The notes under the pieces: model-generated | Told to the model about the DNA's origin: nothing | Seen by the model: only the letters and a program-made list of their open reading frames with translations | Database searches by the model: none | Position numbers and translations under genes: made by a program | Part shown: positions 1 through 59,300 of the stretch, in pieces | Layout: every line of letters starts with the position of its first letter | How positions within the stretch are numbered: the stretch's first letter is position 1 | DNA from: a virus | DNA: 61,913 nucleotides | Reading direction: 5' to 3' (one strand) | IMG/VR virus record: IMGVR_UViG_3300048587_000154 | Location: 1 to 61,913 of that record

Positions 1-127
1 CATCAAGGTCTAGCACCTTTGCCTCAAGCGCGTTTTCGCCCATCGCCTCCTTCTTGGCGAGGATGGTGTTGTAGGTCTCGGTCAGCGTGTCGAGGAGGTC
101 TTGCTGTTCGGATGGCGTCAGCAACAT
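1..127. repeat. Left copy of the 127-bp terminal overlap
   Basis: Bases 1-127 are identical to bases 61787-61913. The length 127 is a common assembler k-mer size, and the reading frame of the giant minus-strand gene continues exactly across the join. The simplest reading is a circular or circularly permuted genome opened inside that gene, not a true direct terminal repeat. The non-redundant genome is then about 61,786 bp. Confidence 0.9.
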
Positions 128-3100
128 GATGCGCCCGGTCAAGCGCTGCATCGGGTTCTCTGTCGAGACCGCGCCCTTTTCGTTGAAGGCAACCGGCGTG
201 CCAAGGCGATCGTTCAGTTCGGCGTTGTCGCGCGCCCACTGAACGGCGGCAAGATCGCCATATTCGTTCATGAAATCGACGGCATCGGCGGTGAACGCGC
301 TCTTGCGGCTGGCTGTGGTGTTCGCCGACAAGGAGGCCATCTTCTTCATGAGGACGGCGGTTGGTCGCGCCTCTGCCGGGATATCGGCGGAAAGCTGCGT
401 ATAGGCCGGCGCAATCACCTGTCCGGTACGGTGGATGCGGCCAAGCATCTGCATGTGCGTATCAATGTTTCCGTCCGCCTGGGCGATGACCATGCGGCGG
501 CGCGAGCGATCCTTGTACTTGGATGACGCATGCAGCGAAACGCCAGTCGAGCCGGAGCGGTTGAGGATAACGACATCGAGACCGCCGTCGTTGAACTTCT
601 TGATGGTGACGCGCTTGCCCTCTGCGCCCCGCTCGGCGGAAGGCCGCGACGCCAGCGTGCCGGTCTTGTAGTCGATCATGGTCCCGCGCCCGGTGATCTC
701 GGCGACCTTGTGGCCGTCCTTGGTCAGTTCGTGGCGGATGTAGTCGATCGGGGAGGCAGGCAGGCCAGACAGGTCGGCTTCCTCGATCGCGGTTTGCGCG
801 GCCTCGTAGCCGGCCCGAAACTCGCCTGGCAAATCCGTTATCGGGATGAACACATGATCCTTTTCGTCCTCTCCATCCTTGATGGTGATGCGCAGCGTGC
901 GGTCGAGGTAGCGCTGCACCACATCGGCGAAGGTGATGTTGATCGGATCGCCGATCGATAGGCCCTTGTCCGCCGCATAGTCGGAAATGAACGACTCGTT
1001 GGTGAACGAAAGGGTGATGACCGGCTTCTCACCATCCGCCAGCGCCTGCTTGGCGCGCTCCACGGCGGCCTTGGCCTTGATGGAAAGCAACATCTGGTTG
1101 ATGATGTTGTGCATGATCGAGGCAAATTCGGTCGAGTTCGCCGCTAGTTCACCGATGCCGCTATCCATCCCCATAGCCGCGCCGTTTTCCTTAAGCCACG
1201 CCTCGATCCATTCCTTGCGGAAATCCTTGATGGATCGGTCGAAGTCGAAGATTGTCCGAATGGAGTTGGCGAAGTCGGCATAGGCTTCGTAATTGACCTC
1301 TGCAACGTCTAGGTCGTACTCGACACCCTCGAATGAACGCTCGCGCCTGGCGTACTGTCCAGCATCAGCCAGCATCGACGCCACCACCTGTTGCAGCGGC
1401 ACCTTGCCCTTGGTGATGAGTTCGGGGAGGTCTTTCGGATCATTGACCGCCTTGGCCATGTCGGTACGGCTGTACAGGTCCATGACGGTCGGGTTTTTGG
1501 CGTAGGTGGCAGAGGAATACATGACCGCCTTGGCGACTGAAATCCACTGCCGGAACTTCTGCGCACGCGGAACCGGGGCACCCTTGGCGGCGCGCTGCTT
1601 TTCGCCCTGACCGCCCGCATTGTGCGACTCGTCCATGATGAGGAAGGCGCGCGGGGCGATCTGGTTCATGAAGCGACGGCGCGAGGTCTCCAACCCCTTC
1701 ACCGTGTTCATCTGGTCGTAAGTGGTGAAGATCACATCCGGCTTGATCTTGCCAGACAGGATCGCCAGCATTTGTGCGTCCGCGTCCTTCGGCGATTGGG
1801 ACTTGGTGAATTGGCCGCGCTTCTTGGGGGCTTTAACGCCGTCTACCTTGGCCTGATCGCGCTCGATGAGCCAATCGACCGCCTCATCGTCCAGCGGAAC
1901 GGTGGTGTTTGAGTTGGTCATGAAGATGTACGGATCGCGACCAAGCGCCTTCGGCCACTGGATATCATTCAGGTCGCGGTACATGTCGCCGTAGAGGTCG
2001 GGCTTCTCCGTGACGAATACCGGCACCATGCCGCGCTTGTGGGCGAAGCGAATGGCAGCCGCGACGACACGGCCCTTACCGATGCCGGTCTGGTCTCCGA
2101 TGATGAAGGCGTCGCCCTTGGCAACGTTGTCGATCGCCAGCGCGATTGCGTCTATCTGCTCGGCGCTGAACACGTCCTCAAGCTCGGACGTGTCGTAGCC
2201 AAGGCTCTGCGCAACGAAGGCGTCGATGTCGCCGTGGGTCTGCTCGATCTTCGCCAGCGAAGCATCCATCGCCGCGCCAAGGGCGGCGGGAACAAGCGTG
2301 TTGAGCGACTGGCCTTCGCGCGAATAGGGCCGGTACGGCACTTGCCCGGTCGCGTTGGCCTCGCTGGTTACTCTAGCGTCTCGCGGCTTGGCATCAACGC
2401 GCTCACCAGTTCCTCCGGTGTCGTCGCGCCCTGCCAGGCCGCTTCGTCCCTGATCGCCATCCACCAATCCGTCAGGGCTTCGTTGTCCCCGATCATCTGG
2501 AAGGCTGCTTGGCGCGGGCTGGCGTCCGCCGACGGGCGCTGCATCAACAGGCCCTCGGCTTCCATCCTGTCCGCTGCGTCCGCTATCTCCTGCGGGGCGT
2601 TCTTCGACTGCTCCAACAGGGTTCTGAATTTCGCCTCGACCTTCGATAGAAACCGGCTCTCCTCGGTCTGCGGCACTTTCTGAACTACGGCTGCCATCGA
2701 GATATCCTTTCAGCGATGCCCATGAATTAATGTAGGCAGGAACGCGGGCTGCGGGAAGGGGTAGGCTTGATTTGCCCTTTCCGTCGATCACGATCACGTC
2801 AACCGGCCATGCCGCGCCTTGGCGCTGGTACATCTGACCGGACACGGTGAAGTGCTCGATCACGTTGTAGCTGTCGTAGAGGCGCTTGTAGAACTTGCGC
2901 TTTTGCGAGGTGTTGTAGTTGTCGCTGCGCTCGGCCTCTGTGCCATCCTTGACGCTGCCAACGATGAATACGGCTCGACCGTCTGGCGTCATGCCTTCCA
3001 GCGCCTTGAGCACGATCGCCTGATCTATCGCGGTGGTGCGGTGCTGGCCGACCTCGAACACGATCGACTCGCCATTCTTGCGCACGGCACCAAAAGGCGG

Positions 3101-6100
3101 GTTGCCAACGATGCGGTCGGCTCCGTGCGGGGTCTCCATGTCCAGCGCGTCGTTGTCGGTCACGCGGAAGCCCTGATTGCGCAAGGCTGCGGAGCGATCC
3201 TTGTTCAGTTCGTTGGCGTGAACCTGTTGGGTTTCGGGATCGGTGTCGATCAAGAGCGCGCCGTTGCCGGCTGTCGGCTCGTAGATGATCTTACCGCCTG
3301 CGACGTTCGCCAGGCGATCGACCACGTAGGCGAGCGGCATCGGCGTCGAATAGGCCTGCTCTGCGACGCTCTGCGATGTGCGGGTGGCAAGGCGCGGCTG
3401 GCGCTCGTAGAGGCTCACCAAGCGATCGTAGACCACTTCGCTACCGCGCTTCTTGCCGGCCTTGATGATGTCACGGGCAGCCAGCACAACGGCCTGCTCT
3501 ATGACCTCCTCGGCCTCCTTGTTGGCAATCTCCTCCTGCTTGGCCTTCCAGCCGTGATCCGCCAGCCACCTACGGGCCTGATTGATGGTCTCGAAGCGCG
3601 TATCAGGCGAAAGCAGATGGTCGCGAAGTTCTTCGACCACGGAAGCGGGCGTGTTAATTTTTTCGACCTCTTTTGCGGGCGTATTTTTTACCGGCTCGAC
3701 TGGCTTGGCCTCATCCGCGACCAGATAATCCTTGCTGCGGCCTTCCTTGTTGATCTGGATGCCGCCGCCCGGCACAAAGCCAACCGCTTCGGTCACACGC
3801 ACGTTGTTTTCCGTGTAGGACCGAACGCCCTTGTCATCCTCCCACACGGTGTTGCCGCGCGCATTGACGCCGATCTTGGTCCAGCGCCCGCTTTTCGTTG
3901 CCGGCGTCTCTGCCTTCGGCTCCGGTCTGGCCTTCTCGGCTGCGGCCTCGAAGGCGGCATCGGTGTATTCGTGCCCGCCCAACTCCGGCGTCTTTTCCTT
4001 GCCCAAATCGGCATGCAAGCGCGCCGCCTCCTTGGGCGATGTCATGCCGGTCGCATCGAGGCCGGGATAGTTGCGCGCGCCCTCCCAAAAACTCAACAGG
4101 TAGGGATGAATGGCCTTGCCGAAGTCGGCGGTCATAGCCTTGGCGAAATCGGCAAAACTTTTGACGCCAGACTCGATGTAAGCGCCGGCGATGGTCATGC
4201 CATCGACCAGCATTTCCGGGTCGATGCCGCTGTTGAGTTGCGACAGTTTCGAGCGAAGTCGGGCGCGGGCGGCTTCAACCTTGTCGGTGGTGAATATCTT
4301 GTTGCCGGCGAAACGATCGGTTGGCTTCTCCGTGGACTTGGCCTTCACCTGATTGTGCAGGTCCATGAGGTCGGTCTGCCTGGCATCGTCGCCGAACAGC
4401 CCGCCAACGTCCTTTTGCGGCTTGGCGGCCTTGAGCGGGGCATCGGCCTTGCGCTGGGCCATGGTAGCGTCGGAGGCGCGCTCTGCGCCGGGAATGACCG
4501 TCTGCGGCTTACCGTCGGCTCCGGCCTCGGTTTCCGGCTTACGGGCACGCAGCTTCAACAGCGCCAGGCGGGCAGTGCGCTTGTCGAAGGCCATGCCGTC
4601 AACAACGACGCCATCCTTGGAAGTCTGAATGCGGCGCTCGATGGTGGCGATCGCCGCATCGGCATTGCCGTTTTCACCAGCGAGCATGCGCTCGGCCATG
4701 ATTTCGGCCTCGGCGTTGTCGGCGCGCGGGGCTGGCTCGCTGCGGAGCGCGGCTAGTTCTTCGTCGGAGGCGAACGTGTCGCGTGCGCCGCCTTCTGTGC
4801 CCGTTCGAGCGCTTCCGCCGTCTGTTTCTTGGCCTGCACCTTGCGGCCCGCTCTCGCGGCCATCCGGTGCTTGTGCGCGGAAGTCTTGGCGATCTGCTTG
4901 CGCTTCGGATCGGTCGCTGCCTTGGCTTCCTGCTCGCGCTGCCGCGCCGTCCGCAAGTGCTGCTCCGGGGTGTACTTCATCGGACCCTACCTCATCGAAG
5001 AATGGAATAACCGGCGTTGCCTCGGCTTCGGGCTGCGGGTTGTCTGCGTCATAGCCCATCGCATCACGTTCAAGCGCATCGTCCACGCTCATCCCCCCAG
5101 TCATCAGGTCGATGACTTCTGCCATGCCAGCGGCATCGGGATCAATGCCCAATTCACGCAATTCAGCCATCGCGCGTTCGCGGGCGTTGACATGCTGACG
5201 TTCATCGGTGGCGCGGCTCTGATCTTCCCGCCAAGCCTGCGCCCAATCGTCGTCGTTGCGAGAGAACTGGTCGCGGCTGCCAATGTCGGTCGCAAGCGAT
5301 ACCAGCATGTCATCAATGGTCGAGGTGGAAAGCTCGCCATCCTCCGAGTCCTGCAAATAGCCGTTCTCGACCAGAAGCGCGCGGGCCTGATCGAGCGATC
5401 GGCCATTGGCGCGCACCAACTTGCCTACGCCTGGCACAAACACCTTGTCAGCGTCCATGTTGGCAAGCTCGCCCTTGTGATCGCGAACACCACCGCTGGC
5501 CGCAAGAAACTCGACCATCGACTGCGGGCGCTTCACACGGCCCTGTGCGTCTGCCGGCCAGCCTTCTTGCGTGGTTTTGACCTTGCCCATCGCATAGGGC
5601 GTGCGATGCGCCTTTGGCGTGGCGATCCAGTCGCGGAAGGCCTTCGGGGAAACCGACGTGATCGCGCCCACACGCTGGTTTCCCGATCCATCGGAGAACG
5701 CCTTGACGTACAGGTCGCGGGCCTGCGCGATGCTGTCTGCGCCAAGAATGACCTTATGCTCATCGAAGCGCCCGTTTTGCGTCGGCGCACGCTGGTCAAC
5801 GATGTAGATTTTCTTCGATTTCGGGTTGTCGCCCACGTACACATCGACGTGATCGCCGTCCGCGCCCGTGGTTTTCTTGATATACCCGTAATGCGCCGGA
5901 AGGACGGACTCCCATGCCGGCCCGTCGGGGTTCTTGTTGCGGCGCGTCGATCCCTTTGGGTTCTCGATCGTGATGTCTTGCCCGGCGATGCGAACATGCG
6001 CCTTCTTGTAGTTCCCAGCCTGCGCCTGTGCGTCCGACGGCTCGGCAACGCGCTGTCCAGCCGCTTCGAGGTCTTGCGAGGTCTCGATCGATGCCGGGCG

Positions 6101-7696
6101 CGCACGCGATGCGTCGGTCTCAAGCCCGCGTGCAGATGAGAGCGCGGCAGGCTGGGCTTCTTCCGGCTGCTGAATGACGGTCGGAGCCTCAAGGGCGGGT
6201 TCCTGCGCAACAGGCTGGGCTTCCGGTGCAACGGGTGCCGGTTCTTGTGCAACACCGTACTGCGCGGCGATGGCAATCTCGTCTGGCGTGGCTGGGTCGA
6301 TCGCCTGGCTCACCTCTGCGGCGGCTTCTTCCGGTGACATCGAGTCGATATCGGCGTCGGTCCACAGCATCTTGCGAAGCGTGGCACGGACTTCCGGGGG
6401 GACGCTGGTCGAGGGTGTGGCCGGAGGTGGCATGGAAGGCGCAATGGGCACTGCCGCCTCCTGCTCCACCTCCGGCGCGGCGGGAGCGGCGGCTTCTGGC
6501 GATCCGCGCTCAACCGCATCCGGCTCGGTCGAGGTCTCCAATGGCGCTCGCGCGTAACGCTCGGCAGGGTGCGTCACCACCTGCTGATTGTTAGCGTCCG
6601 CCGCACCGCCCTCGCCCTTGCCGAATATCGCGCGTCCGGTCTTGGACACGACTTGCTCGCCCACCTTCAAGCCACCGCCGACGATGCCGCCGATTGCAGC
6701 CGACTCGGCCACGCCATCCATGATGTCTTGATCGGGCTTGTAGACGTAGCGCGCAATGAGGTTCTGCGCCGCCTGCTGAACGGCTTCCTGACCGCCTTCG
6801 GCTGCCGCCTGTGCAAGCACCTTCCCGACGGCTCCGGCCAACTTGCCGGCGAACGGCAGCGGCACGCGCTCGAACAGCGTTTCGATCGGGATTTGCTCTG
6901 TGAGACCGGGATATCGGCCCAACCTGGCCGCTTGGATGATCTGCTCTTGCGTCGCGCCCTTGGAGATAGCGTCATCGATCTGCTGACCGCCCGTCGCCAG
7001 TGAGCCGCCGACAACGCCGGCAACCGGGCCAAGGCCGGGCACCGCGCCAGCCGCCATGAATGGAACGGTCGAGCCAAGCCCTTCCGAGATCGACCGCGAC
7101 CAAGTGTTCTCATAGTCCTCGGCTGCCGGGAAGTTCTCGGCGGCATAGTCCTGCATCGCCTGCCCTGCTTTGAACAGGGATGTGTCCTGAATTTTCTCCT
7201 CCGGCATGATGTCGGCGTTTTCGCCGAGTCCTGCCAGCGCCTTCACGCCACCATCGACCGTGAGCGTTCCGTTTCGCACCTGCGAAGCGACGGCCAGAAG
7301 AACGATTTCCTTCAAGCCGCGAATGCCCTTGTTGGCCTTGCGCTGCCAGTCCACCCATTCCGTGTTCGTCATGAGCGGGATGCGCTCGAAGTCGGTTACC
7401 AAGCTCTTGACGGCTTCGCGCTCTGCCGGCGAATTGGCCTGTTCCGGGGCAAGACCCTTGACCATGGAGCCGATGGCGTTGATCGCTCCGGCTGCGATGC
7501 CCTTGCCAACTTCGGGGAAGAACGATCCGCCTTCCTCCTCGGCGATCGGCTGGGCCGGCTTTACGCTCGGCGCGGCGTATTTCGCCCATGGGCCTGCGGC
7601 CTTTGCGCCGGGCGTCGGCGACGGGCTGGGCGTAACTGCATCGACCGTAGGGGCTGCATACTTCTCCCACGGGCCACGGATCGCGTTTTCAGCCAT
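1..7696 (-). CDS. Giant polyvalent protein, residues 1 to about 2565 (InPase-like, N6-adenine methyltransferase, SBNO-type helicase)
   Basis: The ATG at 7696 directly follows the TAA of the upstream gene. The frame stays open past base 1 and resumes at 61786, ending at 56316: 4,388 residues in all. The N-terminus has two PWxKYAAP motifs (about residues 9 and 36), then Gly/Ala-rich hydrophobic stretches (about 210-310). Residues 555-690 resemble the inorganic-pyrophosphatase-like domain of phage polyvalent proteins (ENPKGS, PAHYGYI, GADGDHVDVYVG). A methyltransferase has EPTAGNGAL near 1473 and NPPF at 1532-1535. A Strawberry-notch/SF2 helicase has GDQTGIGKG near 1867, DESH at 2022 and MLGRIHRTGQ at 2417. 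Between domains lie long Gly/Ser/Asp/Arg-rich linkers, two of which contain nested genes. By family precedent (N4-type virion giants, DarB-like proteins) it is probably packaged and ejected to protect or modify incoming DNA; that role is inference. Confidence 0.93.
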   Translation of the reverse strand, partial: MAENAIRGPWEKYAAPTVDAVTPSPSPTPGAKAAGPWAKYAAPSVKPAQPIAEEEGGSFFPEVGKGIAAGAINAIGSMVKGLAPEQANSPAEREAVKSLVTDFERIPLMTNTEWVDWQRKANKGIRGLKEIVLLAVASQVRNGTLTVDGGVKALAGLGENADIMPEEKIQDTSLFKAGQAMQDYAAENFPAAEDYENTWSRSISEGLGSTVPFMAAGAVPGLGPVAGVVGGSLATGGQQIDDAISKGATQEQIIQAARLGRYPGLTEQIPIETLFERVPLPFAGKLAGAVGKVLAQAAAEGGQEAVQQAAQNLIARYVYKPDQDIMDGVAESAAIGGIVGGGLKVGEQVVSKTGRAIFGKGEGGAADANNQQVVTHPAERYARAPLETSTEPDAVERGSPEAAAPAAPEVEQEAAVPIAPSMPPPATPSTSVPPEVRATLRKMLWTDADIDSMSPEEAAAEVSQAIDPATPDEIAIAAQYGVAQEPAPVAPEAQPVAQEPALEAPTVIQQPEEAQPAALSSARGLETDASRARPASIETSQDLEAAGQRVAEPSDAQAQAGNYKKAHVRIAGQDITIENPKGSTRRNKNPDGPAWESVLPAHYGYIKKTTGADGDHVDVYVGDNPKSKKIYIVDQRAPTQNGRFDEHKVILGADSIAQARDLYVKAFSDGSGNQRVGAITSVSPKAFRDWIATPKAHRTPYAMGKVKTTQEGWPADAQGRVKRPQSMVEFLAASGGVRDHKGELANMDADKVFVPGVGKLVRANGRSLDQARALLVENGYLQDSEDGELSTSTIDDMLVSLATDIGSRDQFSRNDDDWAQAWREDQSRATDERQHVNARERAMAELRELGIDPDAAGMAEVIDLMTGGMSVDDALERDAMGYDADNPQPEAEATPVIPFFDEVGSDEVHPGAALADGAAARAGSQGSDRSEAQADRQDFRAQAPDGRESGPQGAGQETDGGSARTGTEGGARDTFASDEELAALRSEPAPRADNAEAEIMAERMLAGENGNADAAIATIERRIQTSKDGVVVDGMAFDKRTARLALLKLRARKPETEAGADGKPQTVIPGAERASDATMAQRKADAPLKAAKPQKDVGGLFGDDARQTDLMDLHNQVKAKSTEKPTDRFAGNKIFTTDKVEAARARLRSKLSQLNSGIDPEMLVDGMTIAGAYIESGVKSFADFAKAMTADFGKAIHPYLLSFWEGARNYPGLDATGMTSPKEAARLHADLGKEKTPELGGHEYTDAAFEAAAEKARPEPKAETPATKSGRWTKIGVNARGNTVWEDDKGVRSYTENNVRVTEAVGFVPGGGIQINKEGRSKDYLVADEAKPVEPVKNTPAKEVEKINTPASVVEELRDHLLSPDTRFETINQARRWLADHGWKAKQEEIANKEAEEVIEQAVVLAARDIIKAGKKRGSEVVYDRLVSLYERQPRLATRTSQSVAEQAYSTPMPLAYVVDRLANVAGGKIIYEPTAGNGALLIDTDPETQQVHANELNKDRSAALRNQGFRVTDNDALDMETPHGADRIVGNPPFGAVRKNGESIVFEVGQHRTTAIDQAIVLKALEGMTPDGRAVFIVGSVKDGTEAERSDNYNTSQKRKFYKRLYDSYNVIEHFTVSGQMYQRQGAAWPVDVIVIDGKGKSSLPLPAARVPAYINSWASLKGYLDGSRSSESAADRGEPVSIEGRGEIQNPVGAVEERPAGDSGRSGQDGSRGPVDAAPVGGRQPAPSSLPDDRGQRSPDGLVDGDQGRSGLAGRDDTGGTGERVDAKPRDARVTSEANATGQVPYRPYSREGQSLNTLVPAALGAAMDASLAKIEQTHGDIDAFVAQSLGYDTSELEDVFSAEQIDAIALAIDNVAKGDAFIIGDQTGIGKGRVVAAAIRFAHKRGMVPVFVTEKPDLYGDMYRDLNDIQWPKALGRDPYIFMTNSNTTVPLDDEAVDWLIERDQAKVDGVKAPKKRGQFTKSQSPKDADAQMLAILSGKIKPDVIFTTYDQMNTVKGLETSRRRFMNQIAPRAFLIMDESHNAGGQGEKQRAAKGAPVPRAQKFRQWISVAKAVMYSSATYAKNPTVMDLYSRTDMAKAVNDPKDLPELITKGKVPLQQVVASMLADAGQYARRERSFEGVEYDLDVAEVNYEAYADFANSIRTIFDFDRSIKDFRKEWIEAWLKENGAAMGMDSGIGELAANSTEFASIMHNIINQMLLSIKAKAAVERAKQALADGEKPVITLSFTNESFISDYAADKGLSIGDPINITFADVVQRYLDRTLRITIKDGEDEKDHVFIPITDLPGEFRAGYEAAQTAIEEADLSGLPASPIDYIRHELTKDGHKVAEITGRGTMIDYKTGTLASRPSAERGAEGKRVTIKKFNDGGLDVVILNRSGSTGVSLHASSKYKDRSRRRMVIAQADGNIDTHMQMLGRIHRTGQVIAPAYTQLSADIPAEARPTAVLMKKMASLSANTTASRKSAFTADAVDFMNEYGDLAAVQWARDNAELNDRLGTPVAFNEKGAVSTENPMQRLTGRIMLLTPSEQQDLLDTLTETYNTILAKKEAMGENALEAKVLDLD
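2368..2697 (-). CDS. Nested out-of-frame gene inside the giant gene, 109 aa
   Basis: The ATG at 2697 follows GAAAGGATATCTCG, a good Shine-Dalgarno at proper spacing, and opens 109 codons in a different frame from the surrounding giant gene. The product has normal protein composition (Leu, Ile, Phe, Met, Trp spread through it; ends TPEELVSALMPSRETLE). I translated the giant frame across the same bases and it stays open but is Gly/Arg/Ser/Asp/Pro-rich linker. It sits between the methyltransferase and helicase domains. No family recognised; it looks soluble and helical. It is either a real overlapping gene or the relic of one engulfed by gene fusion. Confidence 0.6.
   Translation of the reverse strand: MAAVVQKVPQTEESRFLSKVEAKFRTLLEQSKNAPQEIADAADRMEAEGLLMQRPSADASPRQAAFQMIGDNEALTDWWMAIRDEAAWQGATTPEELVSALMPSRETLE
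4753..4980 (-). CDS. Nested out-of-frame gene inside the giant gene, 75 aa basic protein
   Basis: The ATG at 4980 is preceded by GAGGTAGGGTCCG, giving a GAGG-type ribosome binding site. The 75-residue product begins MKYTPEQHLRTARQRE and is helical, Lys/Arg/Gln/Ala-rich. It resembles the small 'PEQHLRxA...A.TDP..R' proteins common in alphaproteobacteria; that likeness is from memory. The giant frame is also open here (checked codon by codon, 4742-4980) but reads as low-complexity Gly/Ala/Ser/Asp/Arg linker. This is the second such nested gene in a linker of the same protein. Confidence 0.55.
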   Translation of the reverse strand: MKYTPEQHLRTARQREQEAKAATDPKRKQIAKTSAHKHRMAARAGRKVQAKKQTAEALERAQKAAHATRSPPTKN

Positions 7697-26491: not shown

Positions 26492-29400
26492 CTAGTCCAC
26501 GGTTGCAGGGGTTTCCGGCACTTCGTCATTGGTCGAGGCCGGAAGCGCTTCGATGTCGTAGATGCGCGACGTGGCGTCCACCAAGTCATCCCGCGTGCCG
26601 AACGGGAAATACAGCATTTCCTCCATAAGAGCGCGGGTCAGGTCGTACACCTTGTCCAACTCATCCTTGCGCATGAGCGGCTTGGCATTCAGGTACTCTT
26701 GCCCGCGATCCTTCGCCATCTTCTGCACCTTCAACTCGCCGTCGAGGGGAGTGAAGCTCATGTAGCCCTTCTCGATGTCAGGCTCCCACAGGCAGGTTTT
26801 GCCGTTCGCGTAGACCAAGCCGGGGAAAAAGAAGGTCGAGTATTGCACGTCCGGTTGCAGGCGCTCGACACGATCGCGTTTCGAGTTGCCGCCCTCGCGC
26901 GGCCATGCAAGCTCATGAATGGCGAAGTTGTACTTCTCGGCGCGCATGCGCTCTTGGAAATACTCATCGTCCGATTGCTGGCCGAAGCGCTCGTATCCGA
27001 CCTTCACCAGCATGACGCCCGGCATCTTCGACCATTTCTTGTGGTAGTGCTTCAACTGGTCCCAGCGCTGCGAGAGCTTCATGCGGTGCCTGGCACCGTC
27101 GAGGAAGTATTTGTTGCCCTGCGCATCCACGCCAATGACCGCGATGGCCGTGTTGTCGGACTTGGCCGTGCGCCCGCGCGAAGGATCGGCGAGGATATAC
27201 ACGTTCAGCGCGGCAGGCCGAACGAACCACGGTTTCATCCATTCGGCATGGAACGTCTTTGCCGTGCCGCCCAGCGGGTTTTGAAGCATCTGCGCGTTGA
27301 CGGTCGATAGCTGCTTGACCTTGGCCTTGTCCCATTGCGCTTGCGTCATCATGACCGGCTTGCCGTCCAGCTTGCCATTGTGCGTTGCCGGGTAAAGGCG
27401 CGGCTTGACGATCCCGCGCCCGATCAGGTCGCCATAGGTGTCAGCAAAACTATTCGAGGAGCAAAAGCCCTCAACCACGTAGTTGCCTGTTTCCGTCTCA
27501 AGCCAATGCACGTCGGCAACACCGGCAGCCTCGACCTTGCTTAGCTTGATGCGCCTTGTGGTCAATTGGCCGTACAATGTCTGTGCCAGCTTCTCAAAGC
27601 GTGCCGGGGCGATCTGCGCGAGGAAGCGATAGCGCTCTCGCCATCCTCCGTTGATGAGGAACACACAGCGGTCGTTCCAATGCTTGGCGCTCGGCTTGTG
27701 CCACGCCTCCGACCACTCGAAGCCCAGTTCCGACAAGACGCGGCGGGTTTCGTTGATCAATTCCGGGTGCGCCATCGTTTGCGTGATGGTGACCGCTCCG
27801 CTTGGGTGGTGTTTGTTCTTCTTGATGCTGCCTTCGCCGTCGAAGAAGCCGGCCAGCCAGCCGGCATCGCGGCCTTGATCCTCCTCGATCGGATCAACCA
27901 GTTCGCGCAATGCGATGAGCCTGCCGTCGCATTTCTTGTTGAGGAATGCTCGATCCTTCCTGACGTGCGCAGAAAGGCCGAGCGGAGCGTATTCCGGGCC
28001 ACCGCCATGCGGCCCGCGCCACCATTTGTGATCATCCGTGCAAACGACGGAACGGCCATTGTCCAGATGGTAGCGGTTGACCGCCTGGCAGAAGTGAACG
28101 CCACGGTTCACAACCTTCGCAGGGCGCAGCCAGCGCTTGCCGTCTCGAAGCTCCCAGCCAACGACTGTATCGCCTATGCGAACGTCTGCGATCGGCTTGT
28201 GCGACCAATCTCCCATCAAGATGCGCTGGTCGCCGCGCGTGCAATAGCGCGTGCCCACCATCCATTCCCGGCCCTCTGCGGTGCCAAGGTTGGTCGATAG
28301 CTCGTAGCTCGATGTGGTCTTTGCCACCTGCTCCGGGGTCGTCACCGACTCGCGCGTCACCATGTCGTCGTAGTTGCGCAGCGCAAAGTGCTTCGATGTC
28401 GGTTGCCCATCGACCACGCCCCAGCCTTCAACCGTGGCTTCCTTGGGGTTGCCCTTGCGCCGGATCGTGAAAGCCTGCTCCGACCAGATGGGAGCCTCGC
28501 CCTTGGGCTTCATCCAGCAGATGTCCGGGTAGATCATCCGCATTTCCGATGTCTCGAACTCGCGCCTGATCTGCGCGACGAACTTCTTTGCGATGGCTGC
28601 CGTGTGGGCAAAGATGCCGATCGTTATCTCCGGGTCATTGATGATTTCCTGCACACACCCGGCAAGCGTGATGATGGTCGAGTTGTGGGTGGTAATGTGC
28701 TGGCGACCGGTAAGGTATAGGCCATCGGTGCGCGCCACCTGAATACACCGCACCGGGACGCTGGCTACCGGCTCAACGCTGATGATGGCGTGTCGCCCGG
28801 AGCGTGTGCGTTTGGCATTCGACGCCCGCGCCTGTTTTCTTGGCAGGTGAAACACGGCTGGACCGTCGGCCTGCACTTGGAAGCTCACCTGATAGTACGG
28901 GTAGTCATCGCCCTTATATTGCCCAACTGGGCGACGGATCGACGGCTTGAGGCCGAGACCGGCAGCTAGGTCGAATACGTCATTTGCGAGCCGTTCCGTC
29001 GCATTGCAAAATGTCGCCGTTCCCCGTCCATCGCAGTGGCCGTCCGTGTCCATGAGACCGCGCAACAACTCCCAACGATCCTCTATCGATGCGCATTGGT
29101 AGGGGCCTGGGATGTGCTTGTTGGTGAACGTTCCCGCCTCACGAAGAAGGGCCGCAAGACCATAGATGCCGACCGCAATACCCCTGCCGCGCCGACGACG
29201 GGTCCGGTGCCCAAGCGCCTCGATCCTTTCGATGATCGCGTTGTCGAAAGGATCGTTGGCTATAGCCGCCGCGCCGCGCGCTCCATCCCCAAGCCATGCG
29301 CCGAGCACATAGGGATGGAGCGGCAATGGCGATGATGATGCGCCAAAGTCCAGCGCAGCAGCCACGGGTACGCTAGGCCACACCGCGCCCTTGATGAGCC

Positions 29401-30010
29401 GCGCATGATCGACCTTCTTCATCAGCGTCCGCGTATCGATAGTAACCCTGGCTCGACCGGCTCTCTTGTTGCCGCTCACCCGCGCGCGGTTGGCGATGTC
29501 CACTGTCCACAGGTGATCGCCGCTGCACACGATGCTCTCACCCTTGTCGAAGGTCACGCGGTAGCAGTCGGCGTCGGTGAAGATCGGCGTTTGGGCCACA
29601 ATGCGGGTTGGCTTCCCGTCGGGGCCGAACACCTCATCGCCAACCTTGAGGTCGCCGAAAGGTCGCCATCCGAGCGGTGTTATCGTCGGTGTTTCAAGAC
29701 ATTCGGCTTTGTAATGGTAGCGCGCCCATAGGTCCAAGTGGCCGTCGGGATCGCCCTCGACCTCGCGGCAGCGATCGTAGAGCCATGGGTGGAAGGCGTC
29801 TGTGCGCGCCAAGATGTTTGTCAGCAGGAAATATCGATCGACCGCGCCGAGGTAGGCGATATCCCCGATCGCGCCCACCTCGGCAATTTGTGTGTAGAAG
29901 TCCACGGCCTCCATGAAATCCATGGCGTGCAGTTCGCCAATCTCGGCATAGCGCACAAGATCGGGGCTGGCGGATGCACGGTACAGGGTGCCTTGGTACT
30001 TCTCGAACAT
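26492..30010 (-). CDS. terL: Large terminase subunit interrupted by two inteins
   Basis: The ATG at 30010 (MFEKYQGTLYR) gives 1,172 residues. Removing two in-frame inteins (residues 104-443 and 590-853) leaves 568, a normal TerL size. The mature ATPase has the P-loop region RYHYK...STIITLAG, rebuilt only after intein 1 leaves, and NYDDMVT as a Walker-B-like site. GTRY|SFADTYGD is the coupling region, rebuilt after intein 2 leaves. The nuclease half has ILADPSRG and DDLVDATSRI acidic residues. No clear Shine-Dalgarno; the start is 10 bp after the upstream stop, so reinitiation is likely. The upstream extension to 30154 is Arg/Ser-rich and not natural. It packages DNA through the portal. Confidence 0.93.
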   Translation of the reverse strand: MFEKYQGTLYRASASPDLVRYAEIGELHAMDFMEAVDFYTQIAEVGAIGDIAYLGAVDRYFLLTNILARTDAFHPWLYDRCREVEGDPDGHLDLWARYHYKAECLETPTITPLGWRPFGDLKVGDEVFGPDGKPTRIVAQTPIFTDADCYRVTFDKGESIVCSGDHLWTVDIANRARVSGNKRAGRARVTIDTRTLMKKVDHARLIKGAVWPSVPVAAALDFGASSSPLPLHPYVLGAWLGDGARGAAAIANDPFDNAIIERIEALGHRTRRRRGRGIAVGIYGLAALLREAGTFTNKHIPGPYQCASIEDRWELLRGLMDTDGHCDGRGTATFCNATERLANDVFDLAAGLGLKPSIRRPVGQYKGDDYPYYQVSFQVQADGPAVFHLPRKQARASNAKRTRSGRHAIISVEPVASVPVRCIQVARTDGLYLTGRQHITTHNSTIITLAGCVQEIINDPEITIGIFAHTAAIAKKFVAQIRREFETSEMRMIYPDICWMKPKGEAPIWSEQAFTIRRKGNPKEATVEGWGVVDGQPTSKHFALRNYDDMVTRESVTTPEQVAKTTSSYELSTNLGTAEGREWMVGTRYCTRGDQRILMGDWSHKPIADVRIGDTVVGWELRDGKRWLRPAKVVNRGVHFCQAVNRYHLDNGRSVVCTDDHKWWRGPHGGGPEYAPLGLSAHVRKDRAFLNKKCDGRLIALRELVDPIEEDQGRDAGWLAGFFDGEGSIKKNKHHPSGAVTITQTMAHPELINETRRVLSELGFEWSEAWHKPSAKHWNDRCVFLINGGWRERYRFLAQIAPARFEKLAQTLYGQLTTRRIKLSKVEAAGVADVHWLETETGNYVVEGFCSSNSFADTYGDLIGRGIVKPRLYPATHNGKLDGKPVMMTQAQWDKAKVKQLSTVNAQMLQNPLGGTAKTFHAEWMKPWFVRPAALNVYILADPSRGRTAKSDNTAIAVIGVDAQGNKYFLDGARHRMKLSQRWDQLKHYHKKWSKMPGVMLVKVGYERFGQQSDDEYFQERMRAEKYNFAIHELAWPREGGNSKRDRVERLQPDVQYSTFFFPGLVYANGKTCLWEPDIEKGYMSFTPLDGELKVQKMAKDRGQEYLNAKPLMRKDELDKVYDLTRALMEEMLYFPFGTRDDLVDATSRIYDIEALPASTNDEVPETPATVD
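27452..28243 (-). mobile_element. Intein 2 of the large terminase (264 aa, LAGLIDADG type)
   Basis: Begins at Cys (CTRGDQRILMGDWSHKPIAD) after GTRY and ends VVEGFCSSN before Ser of SFADTYGD. Block-A-like and block-B-like (SVVCTDDHKWW) motifs are present. A homing-endonuclease motif, WLAGFFDGEGSI, lies in the middle. The penultimate residue is Ser rather than the usual His, so splicing may use a variant branch-resolution step. It interrupts the coupling motif after the ATPase. Confidence 0.88.
28682..29701 (-). mobile_element. Intein 1 of the large terminase (340 aa, LAGLIDADG type)
   Basis: Begins Cys (CLETPTITPLGWRPFGDLKV) and ends ITTHN before Ser of STIITLAG, the classic Cys1 ... His-Asn | Ser+1 layout. 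The block-B-like motif GESIVCSGDHLW is present. Two LAGLIDADG-type helices, YVLGAWLGDG and LLRGLMDTDG, mark a homing endonuclease. It sits inside the P-loop, so unspliced terminase should be inactive. Confidence 0.92.
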
Positions 30011-30020
30011 CGCGTCGCGT

Positions 30021-30998
30021 TTACACGATGTGCGGCGGCGACGACATGATCGCAAAGATGCGGTGGATCGCCATATCCACCTGCTCAAGCCCCTTCTGGC
30101 CGGCATACCAGTCTTTGTTCGACAATACCCAGCCGCACAGTTCGGAAATGGCAATGCGTGCCGCTGCGAGATTGCCCAGCATGTGGATATTGCGCAGATC
30201 GCGCTCCTTCTCCGACCAGTAGCCGATCGCTTCCGCCTTGCCGTCGCCGGTCTCCTCCTTCATGCGCTTTTCGAAATCCTTGGCGCTGCGCTTCATCACT
30301 TCCTCACGGAGTGCGGCGGCTGCACCGTCCTCTGCGGCTTGGGTCTTGGGGCTGTCGATCCTCCCCGCCATGAGCGCAAGAATGTCAGCGAGCGCTGTGA
30401 ATGCTTCATCCGGGTCCGGGTCTGCCCCAACCTTTGACTTGGCTTGGAACTCCATCAGGACCGCCAGCGCGGATGACAAGGCCGCGTCGAGTTCATCCCT
30501 GATGTGCCTCTTGCTGGCCTGGCGGTTGTCACGATCCATCTGCACGTCATCGCGACCGCCGTTGAGAACTCGGTTGATGGCTGCGTCGAGGTCGTTGAGG
30601 CATTCTTCGTCAAGGTCGGGCACACCCTCGCCAAGCGAGACTTTGATGGTGATGCAGCCGGGCGGCACCTCGATGTCGTCCCACGCCTGCTCGTAGTGCG
30701 CCCGCTTGCCGTCGTCGGTATCGGCGATGGCCTCGTTGTGGGCGTCGATCGCCTCGCTTATGGCCTTGGCGAAGCCGGGGAACAATGCGCCCGTGCTGGC
30801 CGCACCGCCGCCGCCATCCATGGTGTTTGGGGCGGCGCTCATCACGACGATGCCGTTCTTGATGTAGCTCTCAAGCTGCGTCGCCTGCGCGATGATGTCG
30901 GCGGTCTGCATGCCGTATCCGTGAGCGTCCAAAAGCTGCCCGATCAGTTGCGCCCGGATCGCGACCGCTTCATTCGCCTTTTCGTATTTCTTGCCCAT
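30021..30998 (-). CDS. Hypothetical protein upstream of terL, 325 aa
   Basis: The start is AGGAGAAATACGAAATG, with AATACGAAA ending on the start codon and a second copy at 30980-30988. The protein is helical and acidic, with a Gly-run (DGGGGAASTG) near residue 62 and a long middle part full of Asp/Ala. The end is IHRIFAIMSSPPHIV. No family recognised. Its position before terL might suggest a packaging partner, but a different gene (40025-40492) looks more like a small terminase. Confidence 0.8.
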   Translation of the reverse strand: MGKKYEKANEAVAIRAQLIGQLLDAHGYGMQTADIIAQATQLESYIKNGIVVMSAAPNTMDGGGGAASTGALFPGFAKAISEAIDAHNEAIADTDDGKRAHYEQAWDDIEVPPGCITIKVSLGEGVPDLDEECLNDLDAAINRVLNGGRDDVQMDRDNRQASKRHIRDELDAALSSALAVLMEFQAKSKVGADPDPDEAFTALADILALMAGRIDSPKTQAAEDGAAAALREEVMKRSAKDFEKRMKEETGDGKAEAIGYWSEKERDLRNIHMLGNLAAARIAISELCGWVLSNKDWYAGQKGLEQVDMAIHRIFAIMSSPPHIV

Positions 30999-56022: not shown

Positions 56023-56322
56023 ATGTTGAAATTTGCCGCCGCATTCTATGCGTTGTTCGTTTGTAGTGCGACCGCCTGCGATATCTTTACTGGGGAAGGC
56101 TCCGAGTTCGTCCCCGGAGCAACGCTTACATGGCATCCCGACGGGATATTCACACTCGCCGACTCGGATGGGTCGAAGGACTATGTTTTCCAGTCCACGG
56201 GAATGACTGATGTTCCCTACTCCATGGGCGTCTCGACCAAGGATAAAAACGATGTCGTCTTGATCCGCGAGCTTGATGGCAAGTGGATCATCGACATGGT
56301 GGTTTTCACCTGCGCTCATTGA
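56023..56322 (+). CDS. Secreted small protein on the plus strand, 99 aa
   Basis: A strong GGAGGAA precedes the ATG. MLKFAAAFYALFVCSATACD is a signal peptide (cleavage near ATA/C, or lipidation at C19). The mature part is a beta-rich domain (GATLTWHPDGIFTLADSDGS, DVVLIRELDGKWIIDMVVF) with two further Cys. It is transcribed against both neighbours and overlaps the end of the giant gene by 7 bp. It may be a lysogenic-conversion or superinfection-exclusion gene; inference. Confidence 0.78.
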   Translation: MLKFAAAFYALFVCSATACDIFTGEGSEFVPGATLTWHPDGIFTLADSDGSKDYVFQSTGMTDVPYSMGVSTKDKNDVVLIRELDGKWIIDMVVFTCAH

Positions 56323-59300
56323 CGGCTGGCCTTGACGTAGGCCTTGCGCGCCTCGCGCATGGCGTCCAACTCGGCCTTTTCCAGTTCATCAAGCCGCTTC
56401 TTCTTCTGCGCCGCCGCCATGCTGTCGTCAGCTTCGAGTCGGCGGCGCTCTTTGTTCAGTGCCTTGCGCTGCTTTTCTGCCGCCTTGAACGCACCTGCCG
56501 CCTCAAGCTCTGCCGTGTGCGACTTCCGATAGGCATCTGCCTTTGCCGTCTGGCCGCTCTCGTTGTAGGTTTTCAGATACCCCTCTGACGCCATGACGGC
56601 CTCGCGCTCGCGGTAGTATTCGGTGCGCTGCGAATTTTCATCAATCTCGCCATAGAAGTTGCGCACCCACGGCGTCTTGCCCGGCTCAAACTCGCCCACA
56701 AGCGCGTTTTCCGCCGTCTGCTCGACACCAGTAACGAAGCGGCCAAGCCCGCCGACGAAGTATCCCCACAGATGCTCCAACGTGTCGGGGTGGATATCGA
56801 CCGCGCCTGGCACCACCTCATCACCGCCGCTTGTCCAGTTGATGAGTTCGGCCAACTTCCTGAATGCCGGGTGCGTGGTCGAGAACGCTTGCGAGCTTTC
56901 CGGCGCTGGCGATCGATCGAACGGATTGCTGTCCGGGTAGATCGGTGATCCCGCGAAGTTCTCGTTGCTGATGATATCAACAGCGGGATCGCCAATAGTC
57001 GGCGTCACCATGGAAGCCATGGAGCCGGAGCCGATCGGGTTGAAGGCGTCGAAAGCAACGCGGATCGCTGACAAGATGCCCGTCATCGGGTCTTGCGCGC
57101 CCGAAGCGATGGCCGCGCCCTGCAAGCCCAAGTGATGGAAGGCGTTGTAGCCATAGGCCATCGGGAACGAAACGTATTTCTCGGTGCCGGGGATGAAGAA
57201 CACATACTGGCGTTCGAGCTTGTAAGGCTCGTTTTTCAGCATCTTCTCATAGTACGACTCGCCGTCGTCATCCGTGCCGGAAAACAGCATGTTCCAAACG
57301 TGCTGCATCATCCCGCCAAATATGAACGTGGCGATCGCCGCGCGCACCGCCTTTGAGCGCACCGCCCTCGATCCGACGTTGTAAGCGCCCTGCGCAGCCG
57401 CGTTGAAGAACACGAACCATGCGTTCATCGCCGGGCCAAGCTCGCCATGCTTCTTGAAGTCCACGGTCAGGTCGCGCGCCATGAACGCGGCTTCCTTGGC
57501 CGTGCGGCCCTGAATGTTGCGGGCTGCCGCATAAGAGGCCAGGCGGATGCCGTTTTCGCCAGCATCGTTCAAATCGCCAACGAATTTGGTGACGGCGCGG
57601 TACGCCGCTTTCATGGGCGTGACGCCGTTGACGGCCTCGGTCATCTGCTTTTGCAGCTTGTGCAGGTTTTCTTCCAGCGTGGCGTAACCGTGGAACGTGA
57701 TCTTGCCGCCTGCCTCGACATACTCTGCGGCCATCTTGTCCCAAACACCGTCGCCAGCCTTCTTGCGCGACAAACGCCACAATGCGCCCATCGCCTGCGG
57801 GATGTTCTTCGTGATGGTGGCGATCTGCTTGACCGAAAAGCCTTCGTCCAGCAGGTGCGTTGTGCCTGTCTGAATGTCCCTGATGATGTTGATCGGGGTG
57901 AAGGCCGGGTTGGCGCGGGTGTTGACGATCGACTGCCACACGGTAAGCGGGCGCACGATCTTGGAGAGTGTTCCCAGTTCGGCCATACCCATCTTGCGCA
58001 GCGCGAGGCCGATCTTCGGATCGCGGAAGCGGATATAGAACGTCCGTCCGCCCACCTTCGCGGCCAACACGTCATCAAGGTTCGAGAACGGGTTGGGCAC
58101 GCGGCGATAGGTGACAAGACCATCCTTGCCGATCACGCGCTTGAACACGTCCGGGGCTTTGGTGATGTCGCCAAGGAACTTGTCATCGCCCGACCAGTAG
58201 ACTTGCGCGATATGCTCGCCTTCCGGGTCGAACTCGTTGATGAAGCGCGCCATGGCCTTGCCGACGGCGTTCTTGTGCTGGCGCAAGATCGATTGCTCGT
58301 TTTGCGTGATCGCATGCGCAAGGATGTTCTCGGCCTCGGAAAAGCGGCCCATGGCAACCTTGAACTCATCACCGCGCACATCGAAGCCGCCAGCGCCGTG
58401 ATTGTGCCAGAAGCCGTCCGATGTCATGCCCTCCATGCCCTTGAGGGGCACGTAGTTCTTCCACTGCGTCGTCAATAGGTCGAAGGTCTCGGCGCTGATG
58501 AGACCGGCCTTGCGCTGGTTCTTCAATTCGGCATCGATCATTTCCCTGATGGAGCCGGCAGCGATGCGCAAGGCGCGGTGCTTTTCCGGGTCGCTGCGGG
58601 CGTCCGCGATGATTTCGCGCACCTGATCGATTGACATGCCGGAAGCGCCGACAACCGACGAGTCGAAGATCGCCCGGTAGAACTGGCTTTCCTGCGGGTG
58701 GCGCATGCCGACGACGCGGTTCCGCTCCTCGGCGTGCAGGGCGTAGAGGTACTTGTGCAAATCCTCCAAGCTCGCGCCACCATCCGCCAGCGCTTTCACT
58801 GCCGGCGCGACATAGGTGTCGTGCATGCGCTCGATCTGCGGCAGCGCCCGATCTTCCATCAGGCGGGCGTTCAGATAGGCGTCGTTCAACTCGGACAGCT
58901 TGTAGCCGCCGCGCTCCTGCATCATGCGCAGCGGGTGAAGATAGTCGATCCACTTGCGGGTCAGGTAATCGCCAAAGCTCTCGCCGTCATCCTTGTGACT
59001 GCGATCCTTGGTCGTTGATATGCCCTTGAGCGTGGCCGTAGTGTTGCGAAGCATTTTGGCAATGCGCTGGCCCACCAATGCGCCAGGCGCTTTGCTCGGC
59101 TCGATCTTCGGCGGCACAAACTCGGCCTTGTCTGGCATCTGCATTTCTGCGGTGATGGAAATACGGTTATCGTCATAGATGACGTAATTGTACGTGCCCT
59201 TGCCGTCTGAACGCGATCCCCGATCGAGATAACGATGGCCGGGGATGCCAGCCGCACGCAAAGCTTCGGATGCGGCGCGATCGTTTGGAACAGTCTCACG

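Follow-up and report, generated by a model that had tools for sequence, protein, structure and literature searches.

In Bacillus subtilis, comS, a gene for a short anti-adaptor peptide, lies out of frame inside srfA and is confined to Bacillus. In prokaryotes, a long gene that overlaps another on the same strand is usually either lineage-specific or contested. In actinobacteriophages, DNA methylase genes can hide an out-of-frame gene of the ShiLan type (PMC11855218). Its product is an HNH homing endonuclease; the gene is mobile and patchily distributed, begins with GTG and has no ribosome binding site that could be detected. Phage methylases also occur in polyvalent proteins, and PMC5512222 describes a DarB-like methylase–helicase dyad among them. 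The subject of this study is a 109-amino-acid open reading frame (ORF) that lies out of frame between the methyltransferase and helicase domains of such a giant gene in the phage genome IMGVR_UViG_3300048587_000154 from IMG/VR; the whole stretch of 61,913 bases that was analysed is called the window below. We find that this ORF is very probably a real protein-coding gene with internal initiation, a conclusion drawn from sequence comparison with its relatives. The two elements concerned are:

2368-2697, minus strand: nested 109-amino-acid gene, +1 frame relative to the giant gene, stop codon included (ORF translation, profile match, AlphaFold2)
2705-2709, minus strand: Shine-Dalgarno motif AAGGA, 7 nucleotides before the nested ATG, within the Lys-Gly codons of the giant frame after the methyltransferase part (sequence)

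The nested ORF starts with an ATG at 2697 and translates as MAAVVQKVPQTEESRFL...PSRETLE* (109 amino acids). It is wholly contained in the giant ORF at 2-7696 on the minus strand, which is itself open throughout the overlap and, over the nested ORF, is rich in Gly, Arg, Ser and Asp between its N6_Mtase and AAA_34 matches. A preliminary description of this DNA had pointed out the out-of-frame ATG ORF, a correctly spaced ribosome binding site and an open giant frame that forms a Gly/Arg/Ser/Asp linker between methyltransferase and helicase. All three were recovered, and the giant frame indeed behaves as a linker. That description had also taken the ORF for a genuine gene with an initiation site of its own, which is now borne out by conservation of its frame, start and Shine-Dalgarno codons, by selection and by a predicted fold. 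In the mechanism we propose, a single mRNA would give two products: some ribosomes would initiate the nested gene internally at its own Shine-Dalgarno motif and ATG, while others would stay in the giant frame, in which these bases encode a low-complexity linker. The nested protein is probably translated by internal initiation.

The relatives were collected with an alignment of the giant-frame region, which brought in 160 loci from IMG/VR and GTDB genomes; the analysis covered 172 loci. In an IMG/VR contig with 49% identity from methyltransferase to helicase (L008), an ATG ORF of 111 amino acids occupies the same frame and place. The nested ORF is also present in far relatives, including plasmids of Thalassospira, Picosynechococcus, Chroococcidiopsis and Gloeobacter and a Bacteroides phage. 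Methyltransferase and helicase share one uninterrupted frame in 169 of the 172 loci; the three damaged ones are L142, with giant-frame stops, and L171 and L172, which are apparently decayed. At 158 of the 172 loci, a +1-frame ORF spans over 80% of the linker; in five of these, all outgroup plasmids, it is an unrelated Arg-rich frame. The +2 frame reaches this coverage at one locus. With these five removed by inspection and loci with longer linkers or slightly lower coverage added back, about 160 of the 172 loci carry the nested ORF, in a sample biased by its retrieval towards carriers. Carriers occur among phages and plasmids as well as in bacterial genomes from several phyla. Lessievirus-type relatives (DC1 and others) were set aside as uninformative, matching only giant-protein residues of about 1126-1230, with no methyltransferase or helicase match in the fetched stretches.

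Selection was examined in both frames. Across 576 pairs, which share ancestry and hence are not independent events, differences at giant codon positions 1, 2 and 3 were 0.25, 0.17 and 0.55 in the methyltransferase part, 0.17, 0.10 and 0.50 in the helicase part, and 0.33, 0.24 and 0.19 in the nested region. The substitution peak therefore shifts from giant position 3 in the flanks to giant position 1, which is the wobble position of the nested frame. When isolated changes in 104 close pairs were scored relative to opportunity, nested-synonymous classes reached 2.43 and 4.19, and nested-nonsynonymous classes 0.48 and 0.51. The nonsynonymous-to-synonymous rate ratio omega was about 0.12-0.20 for the nested frame and about 0.58-0.94 for the giant-frame linker. 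These comparisons among the relatives show strong purifying selection on the nested frame and only weak selection on the linker read in the giant frame, which over the nested gene behaves as a passive linker. The preliminary description had proposed comparing synonymous and nonsynonymous change in the two frames and regarded conservation of the giant frame alone as evidence against a gene. The opposite pattern emerged, with the nested frame the conserved one.

The nested start is an ATG in 139 of 145 non-identical loci. A Shine-Dalgarno match of at least 5 nucleotides precedes it in 107 of the 145, as compared with 8.5% for other ATGs in the +1 frame, but the starts were picked partly by Shine-Dalgarno score and the conservation of the ATG follows in part from that choice. 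More weight is therefore carried by an independent codon control, in which the giant-frame Lys-Glu at the Shine-Dalgarno site is coded AAG-GAG in 73 of 84 loci versus 6.4 expected from the same genes. Thus, in the relatives, the nested gene has an initiation signal of its own that is selected at the DNA level. Most Bacteroidota loci lack a Shine-Dalgarno motif at the nested start, consistent with the little use that Bacteroidota make of this motif. A Shine-Dalgarno-like AAGGAG within a coding region can also stimulate frameshifting, and at some loci the nested frame stays open for a short distance before the ATG (four codons in the window); programmed frameshifting from the methyltransferase frame would then give a protein fusing the methyltransferase to the nested product, either in place of the free small protein or in addition to it. 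We regard this as very unlikely, since frameshifting needs neither the prevailing ATG nor the spacing of mostly about 7-10 nucleotides that is typical of initiation, and many loci, L008 among them, have a nested-frame stop directly before the ATG.

At the other end of the nested gene, a giant-frame ATG lies at or just after the nested stop in 40 of 152 loci, mostly cyanobacterial, with a Shine-Dalgarno match of at least 5 nucleotides in only 10. L011, L012, L137 and L144 are among the loci with this ATG, and in four loci it overlaps the nested stop as ATGA. This ATG may serve separate re-initiation of the helicase half.

Searches with the 109 amino acids alone returned no match, either by tblastn in phage and plasmid collections or by a pattern scan of IMG/VR, because the nested protein evolves too fast for single-sequence searches. 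In contrast, a profile of the nested ORFs of 14 relatives, with the window excluded, finds 2371-2709 on the minus strand at E=2.2e-10; among all six-frame ORFs of the window the nested ORF is its sole match, with nothing else below 0.5. A profile built from 151 nested members matches the window ORF at E=1.9e-5. The corresponding profile of the relatives' giant-frame linkers gave no significant match to the window's giant ORF. Members of the family are about 90-230 amino acids long and follow a loose pattern, W-P...V.P...YL..L..R...N...FP...L..WL; that of the window is without the N-terminal strand region of the family. AlphaFold2 predicts confident folds, with a predicted local distance difference test score (pLDDT) of 91.7 and a predicted template modelling score (pTM) of 0.87 for member L121 and 86.4 and 0.75, respectively, for the window member. 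Foldseek found no credible match in the PDB for either model, nor in BFVD for that of L121. No Pfam, NCBIfam, PHROG or PADLOC family fits the nested members tested, and matches of the nested profile to IL-6 in the PDB (E of about 0.04) were taken as chance. We found no report of the family in the open-access literature searched, and the nested genes constitute an undescribed and largely unannotated embedded protein family. The gene table of plasmid pAQ6 of Picosynechococcus PCC 7002 has one coding sequence here, SYNPCC7002_RS15125, and lists no nested gene; in this locus (L200) the nested ATG is at 6341. In the Gloeobacter morelensis plasmid NZ_CP063846.1 (L012:1859-2308), the nested frame is annotated as a separate hypothetical protein, WP_230844304.1, and the annotated helicase begins beyond it, even though no stop interrupts the giant frame.

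In a tree of the flanking domains, midpoint-rooted and with rooting and sampling as its weak points, the outgroup plasmid loci L015-L020 and L022, all without the nested gene, fall outside, and the carriers form one large group. Inside a Bacteroidota-rich part of it lie L167 and L168, the sole internal pair lacking the gene in a group of 154 sampled rows. With the midpoint root, these positions suggest that the nested gene was gained once, when its host gene was already fused, and was later lost or replaced once. The preliminary description had imagined separate methyltransferase, small and helicase genes that became fused. The outgroup plasmid proteins are already fused without a nested gene of this family, and the frame is uninterrupted at nearly all loci as noted above; insertion or overprinting in an existing linker is therefore the simpler route by which the gene may have been acquired, and fusion around a small gene is less likely and finds no support here. 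In L168, the giant frame of the linker without the nested gene resembles, by eye, a MutS-I-like segment, another filling for this position. In L169, a contig of an Acidobacteria metagenome-assembled genome (1858-4305; nested gene 3866-4291), the methyltransferase frame stops just past the nested gene and no helicase follows, yet the nested gene is recognised at E=4e-20.

The nested profile was also run against about 1,180 genomes from three phyla sampled evenly, not exhaustively: 386 Cyanobacteriota (the phylum of L121), 398 from the phylum of Paracoccus (L109) and 395 from that of Phocaeicola (L157). Besides one false positive, a weak cyanobacterial match (L198, E=3e-4) that belongs to DUF2887, the only copies found were inside a methyltransferase–helicase gene. 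The preliminary description had counted the lack of a homologue outside the embedded context against the gene; such a homologue is indeed lacking from these genomes, but the inference does not follow, because the embedded homologues conserve the nested and not the giant frame. The family is an old one, and in everything searched it was found in the embedded position alone.

The anatomy of the locus, an out-of-frame gene in a phage methylase with an open host frame, is that of ShiLan-type HNH endonucleases (PMC11855218), which raises the question of a selfish or homing insertion. Such an insertion is highly improbable here. Searches of Pfam, NCBIfam and PHROGs link diverse nested members to no nuclease family, HNH or otherwise, no fold in the PDB matched, and the gene is carried through one large clade and not scattered, although retrieval favours carriers. 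Identities of the nested and giant sequences are moreover correlated (Spearman 0.57), which suggests mostly vertical descent.

Several findings weigh against the reading of the ORF as a gene bound to its methyltransferase–helicase. Given the amino acids of the giant frame, the nested frame stays open in 48% of synonymous reshufflings in the window (with the nested protein given instead, the giant frame stays open in 2.6%), and the giant gene holds further out-of-frame ORFs of 159-247 amino acids. Openness alone is therefore weak evidence in the window and was rejected as such. Mean identity within the nested family is 19% where the flanking domains are 45-55% identical. The nine loci without the nested gene, those named in the tree above, mean that the methyltransferase–helicase can exist without it. 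The nested profile missed the embedded copy in three of 10 genomes with a known locus, so that there may be rare stand-alone copies, and the acidic composition of the protein may in part be a by-product of the overlapping frame. The first of these points, together with the longer ORFs, is what would be expected if linker composition in a 60% GC (guanine plus cytosine) genome merely kept the +1 frame open and there were no gene. Such an origin by chance is contradicted by the conserved frame, position, start and Shine-Dalgarno codons, the low omega, the profile match and the confident fold. In the flanking domains of the relatives, only 0.9-1.3% of 330-nucleotide windows are open in +1, which puts the open linker frame across the loci far beyond chance. 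Of the 64 loci below 50% GC, 60 have a called nested ORF, and in every one of these it spans most of the linker, versus one open window of 2554 in the flanks. We therefore consider a chance ORF the least probable of the alternatives weighed here.

The gene that houses the nested ORF is longer than the preliminary description could see. The window has a direct terminal repeat of 127 base pairs (1-127 = 61787-61913), which makes it probable that the assembly is circularly closed. On the basis of this repeat and of frame continuity, the giant gene starts at 7696 on the minus strand, runs off the left end and resumes from 61913 to 56316; it is thus split over both ends of the record and encodes about 4388 amino acids in all. 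Its parts are as follows:

2-7696, minus strand: giant polyvalent-protein gene, first 2565 codons (ORF list and translation; PHROG DarB-like antirestriction match)
56316-61913, minus strand: 3' part of the giant gene, with LPD38 near its end (terminal repeat and frame continuity; Pfam LPD38)
2960-3355, minus strand: N6 adenine methyltransferase match (N6_Mtase), giant-protein residues 1448-1579, upstream of the nested gene (Pfam PF02384, E=7e-4, slightly below the curated cut-off)
1292-2179, minus strand: first domain of a Strawberry-notch-like helicase (AAA_34), residues 1840-2135 (Pfam PF13872, E=5e-19)
35-712, minus strand: C-terminal domain of the Strawberry-notch-like helicase, residues 2329-2554 (Pfam PF13871, E=1e-24)

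The methyltransferase assignment is backed by homology to fused methyltransferase–helicase proteins. The giant gene also encodes an inorganic pyrophosphatase-like domain and lies near virion and DNA-ejection genes. It thus has an adenine methyltransferase and a SWI2/SNF2-type (Strawberry-notch-like) helicase fused in one giant phage protein, as in the DarB-like dyad, and its product is a polyvalent protein as PMC5512222 uses the term. Elsewhere in the window, a 1220-residue ORF (26492-30154, minus strand) has separate terminase large subunit matches at 140-534 and 946-1205, alongside matches to LAGLIDADG, Hom_end-associated Hint and homing-endonuclease families. From the split matches together with these families, the terminase gene probably contains one or two inteins.

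What the nested protein does is suggested by its composition and its company. The members are acidic, with a median isoelectric point (pI) of 4.44 and 87% of them below 5; their few conserved columns (W, P, V, R, N, FP and L-W) suggest no catalytic set; and the gene is found exclusively with the methyltransferase–helicase. Together these features point, tentatively, to a small acidic and non-enzymatic partner of the methyltransferase–helicase, probably an inhibitor, a chaperone or a DNA-mimic-like regulator. Such a regulator would occupy the DNA-binding surface of the methyltransferase–helicase until the machine is deployed. Acidity, fast evolution and a DarB-like antirestriction host gene are also what an independent effector might show, for instance an anti-restriction protein that mimics DNA as Ocr and ArdA do, has its own target and is embedded only for compact co-expression. 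This is the main rival for function, but it seems unlikely to us: the nested models have no fold match, with Ocr reached only at E=7.6 and a template modelling score of 0.16 in a Foldseek search whose best E value was 0.33, and the gene occurs only with the methyltransferase–helicase, even in plasmid loci without phage context such as that of Picosynechococcus, which argues for a partner in cis. It is possible, though we would not lean on it, that an undescribed fold, encoded only out of frame in the methyltransferase–helicase gene and long carried across phyla, is the dedicated regulator of an anti-restriction machine, as its inhibitor or DNA-mimic partner. If so, overlapping frames of each message would specify both the machine and the subunit that controls it.

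The ShiLan-type insertion is the closest precedent for this arrangement. In both, a small out-of-frame gene lies within a phage methylase gene that remains open in its own frame, and no fold is recognisable in the version read in that frame. The nested gene described here differs in its conserved Shine-Dalgarno motif and ATG, in the lack of a nuclease match, in its location between methyltransferase and helicase, and in being near-universal in a large clade. With the dyad of PMC5512222 the host gene shares its kind, combining a methyltransferase with a Strawberry-notch-like ATPase, LPD38 and other domains; term searches of that paper return no mention of a gene embedded between methylase and helicase. 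The nested gene adds an unrecognised component to DarB-like methylase–helicase systems. Like Ocr and ArdA, the nested protein is small, strongly negatively charged and placed in an anti-restriction setting; unlike them, it has no fold or sequence match and was never found stand-alone in the genomes searched. The likeness to comS, a short, separately translated regulatory gene placed out of frame within a giant gene of many domains, is one of layout. No sequence relation is claimed, and in contrast to comS the present family has 90-230 residues, is predicted to be globular and spans several phyla. With the nested frame the better conserved of the two, a ribosome binding site selected at the codon level and carriers in several phyla, the locus makes a strong case that conserved protein families can escape annotation within other genes.
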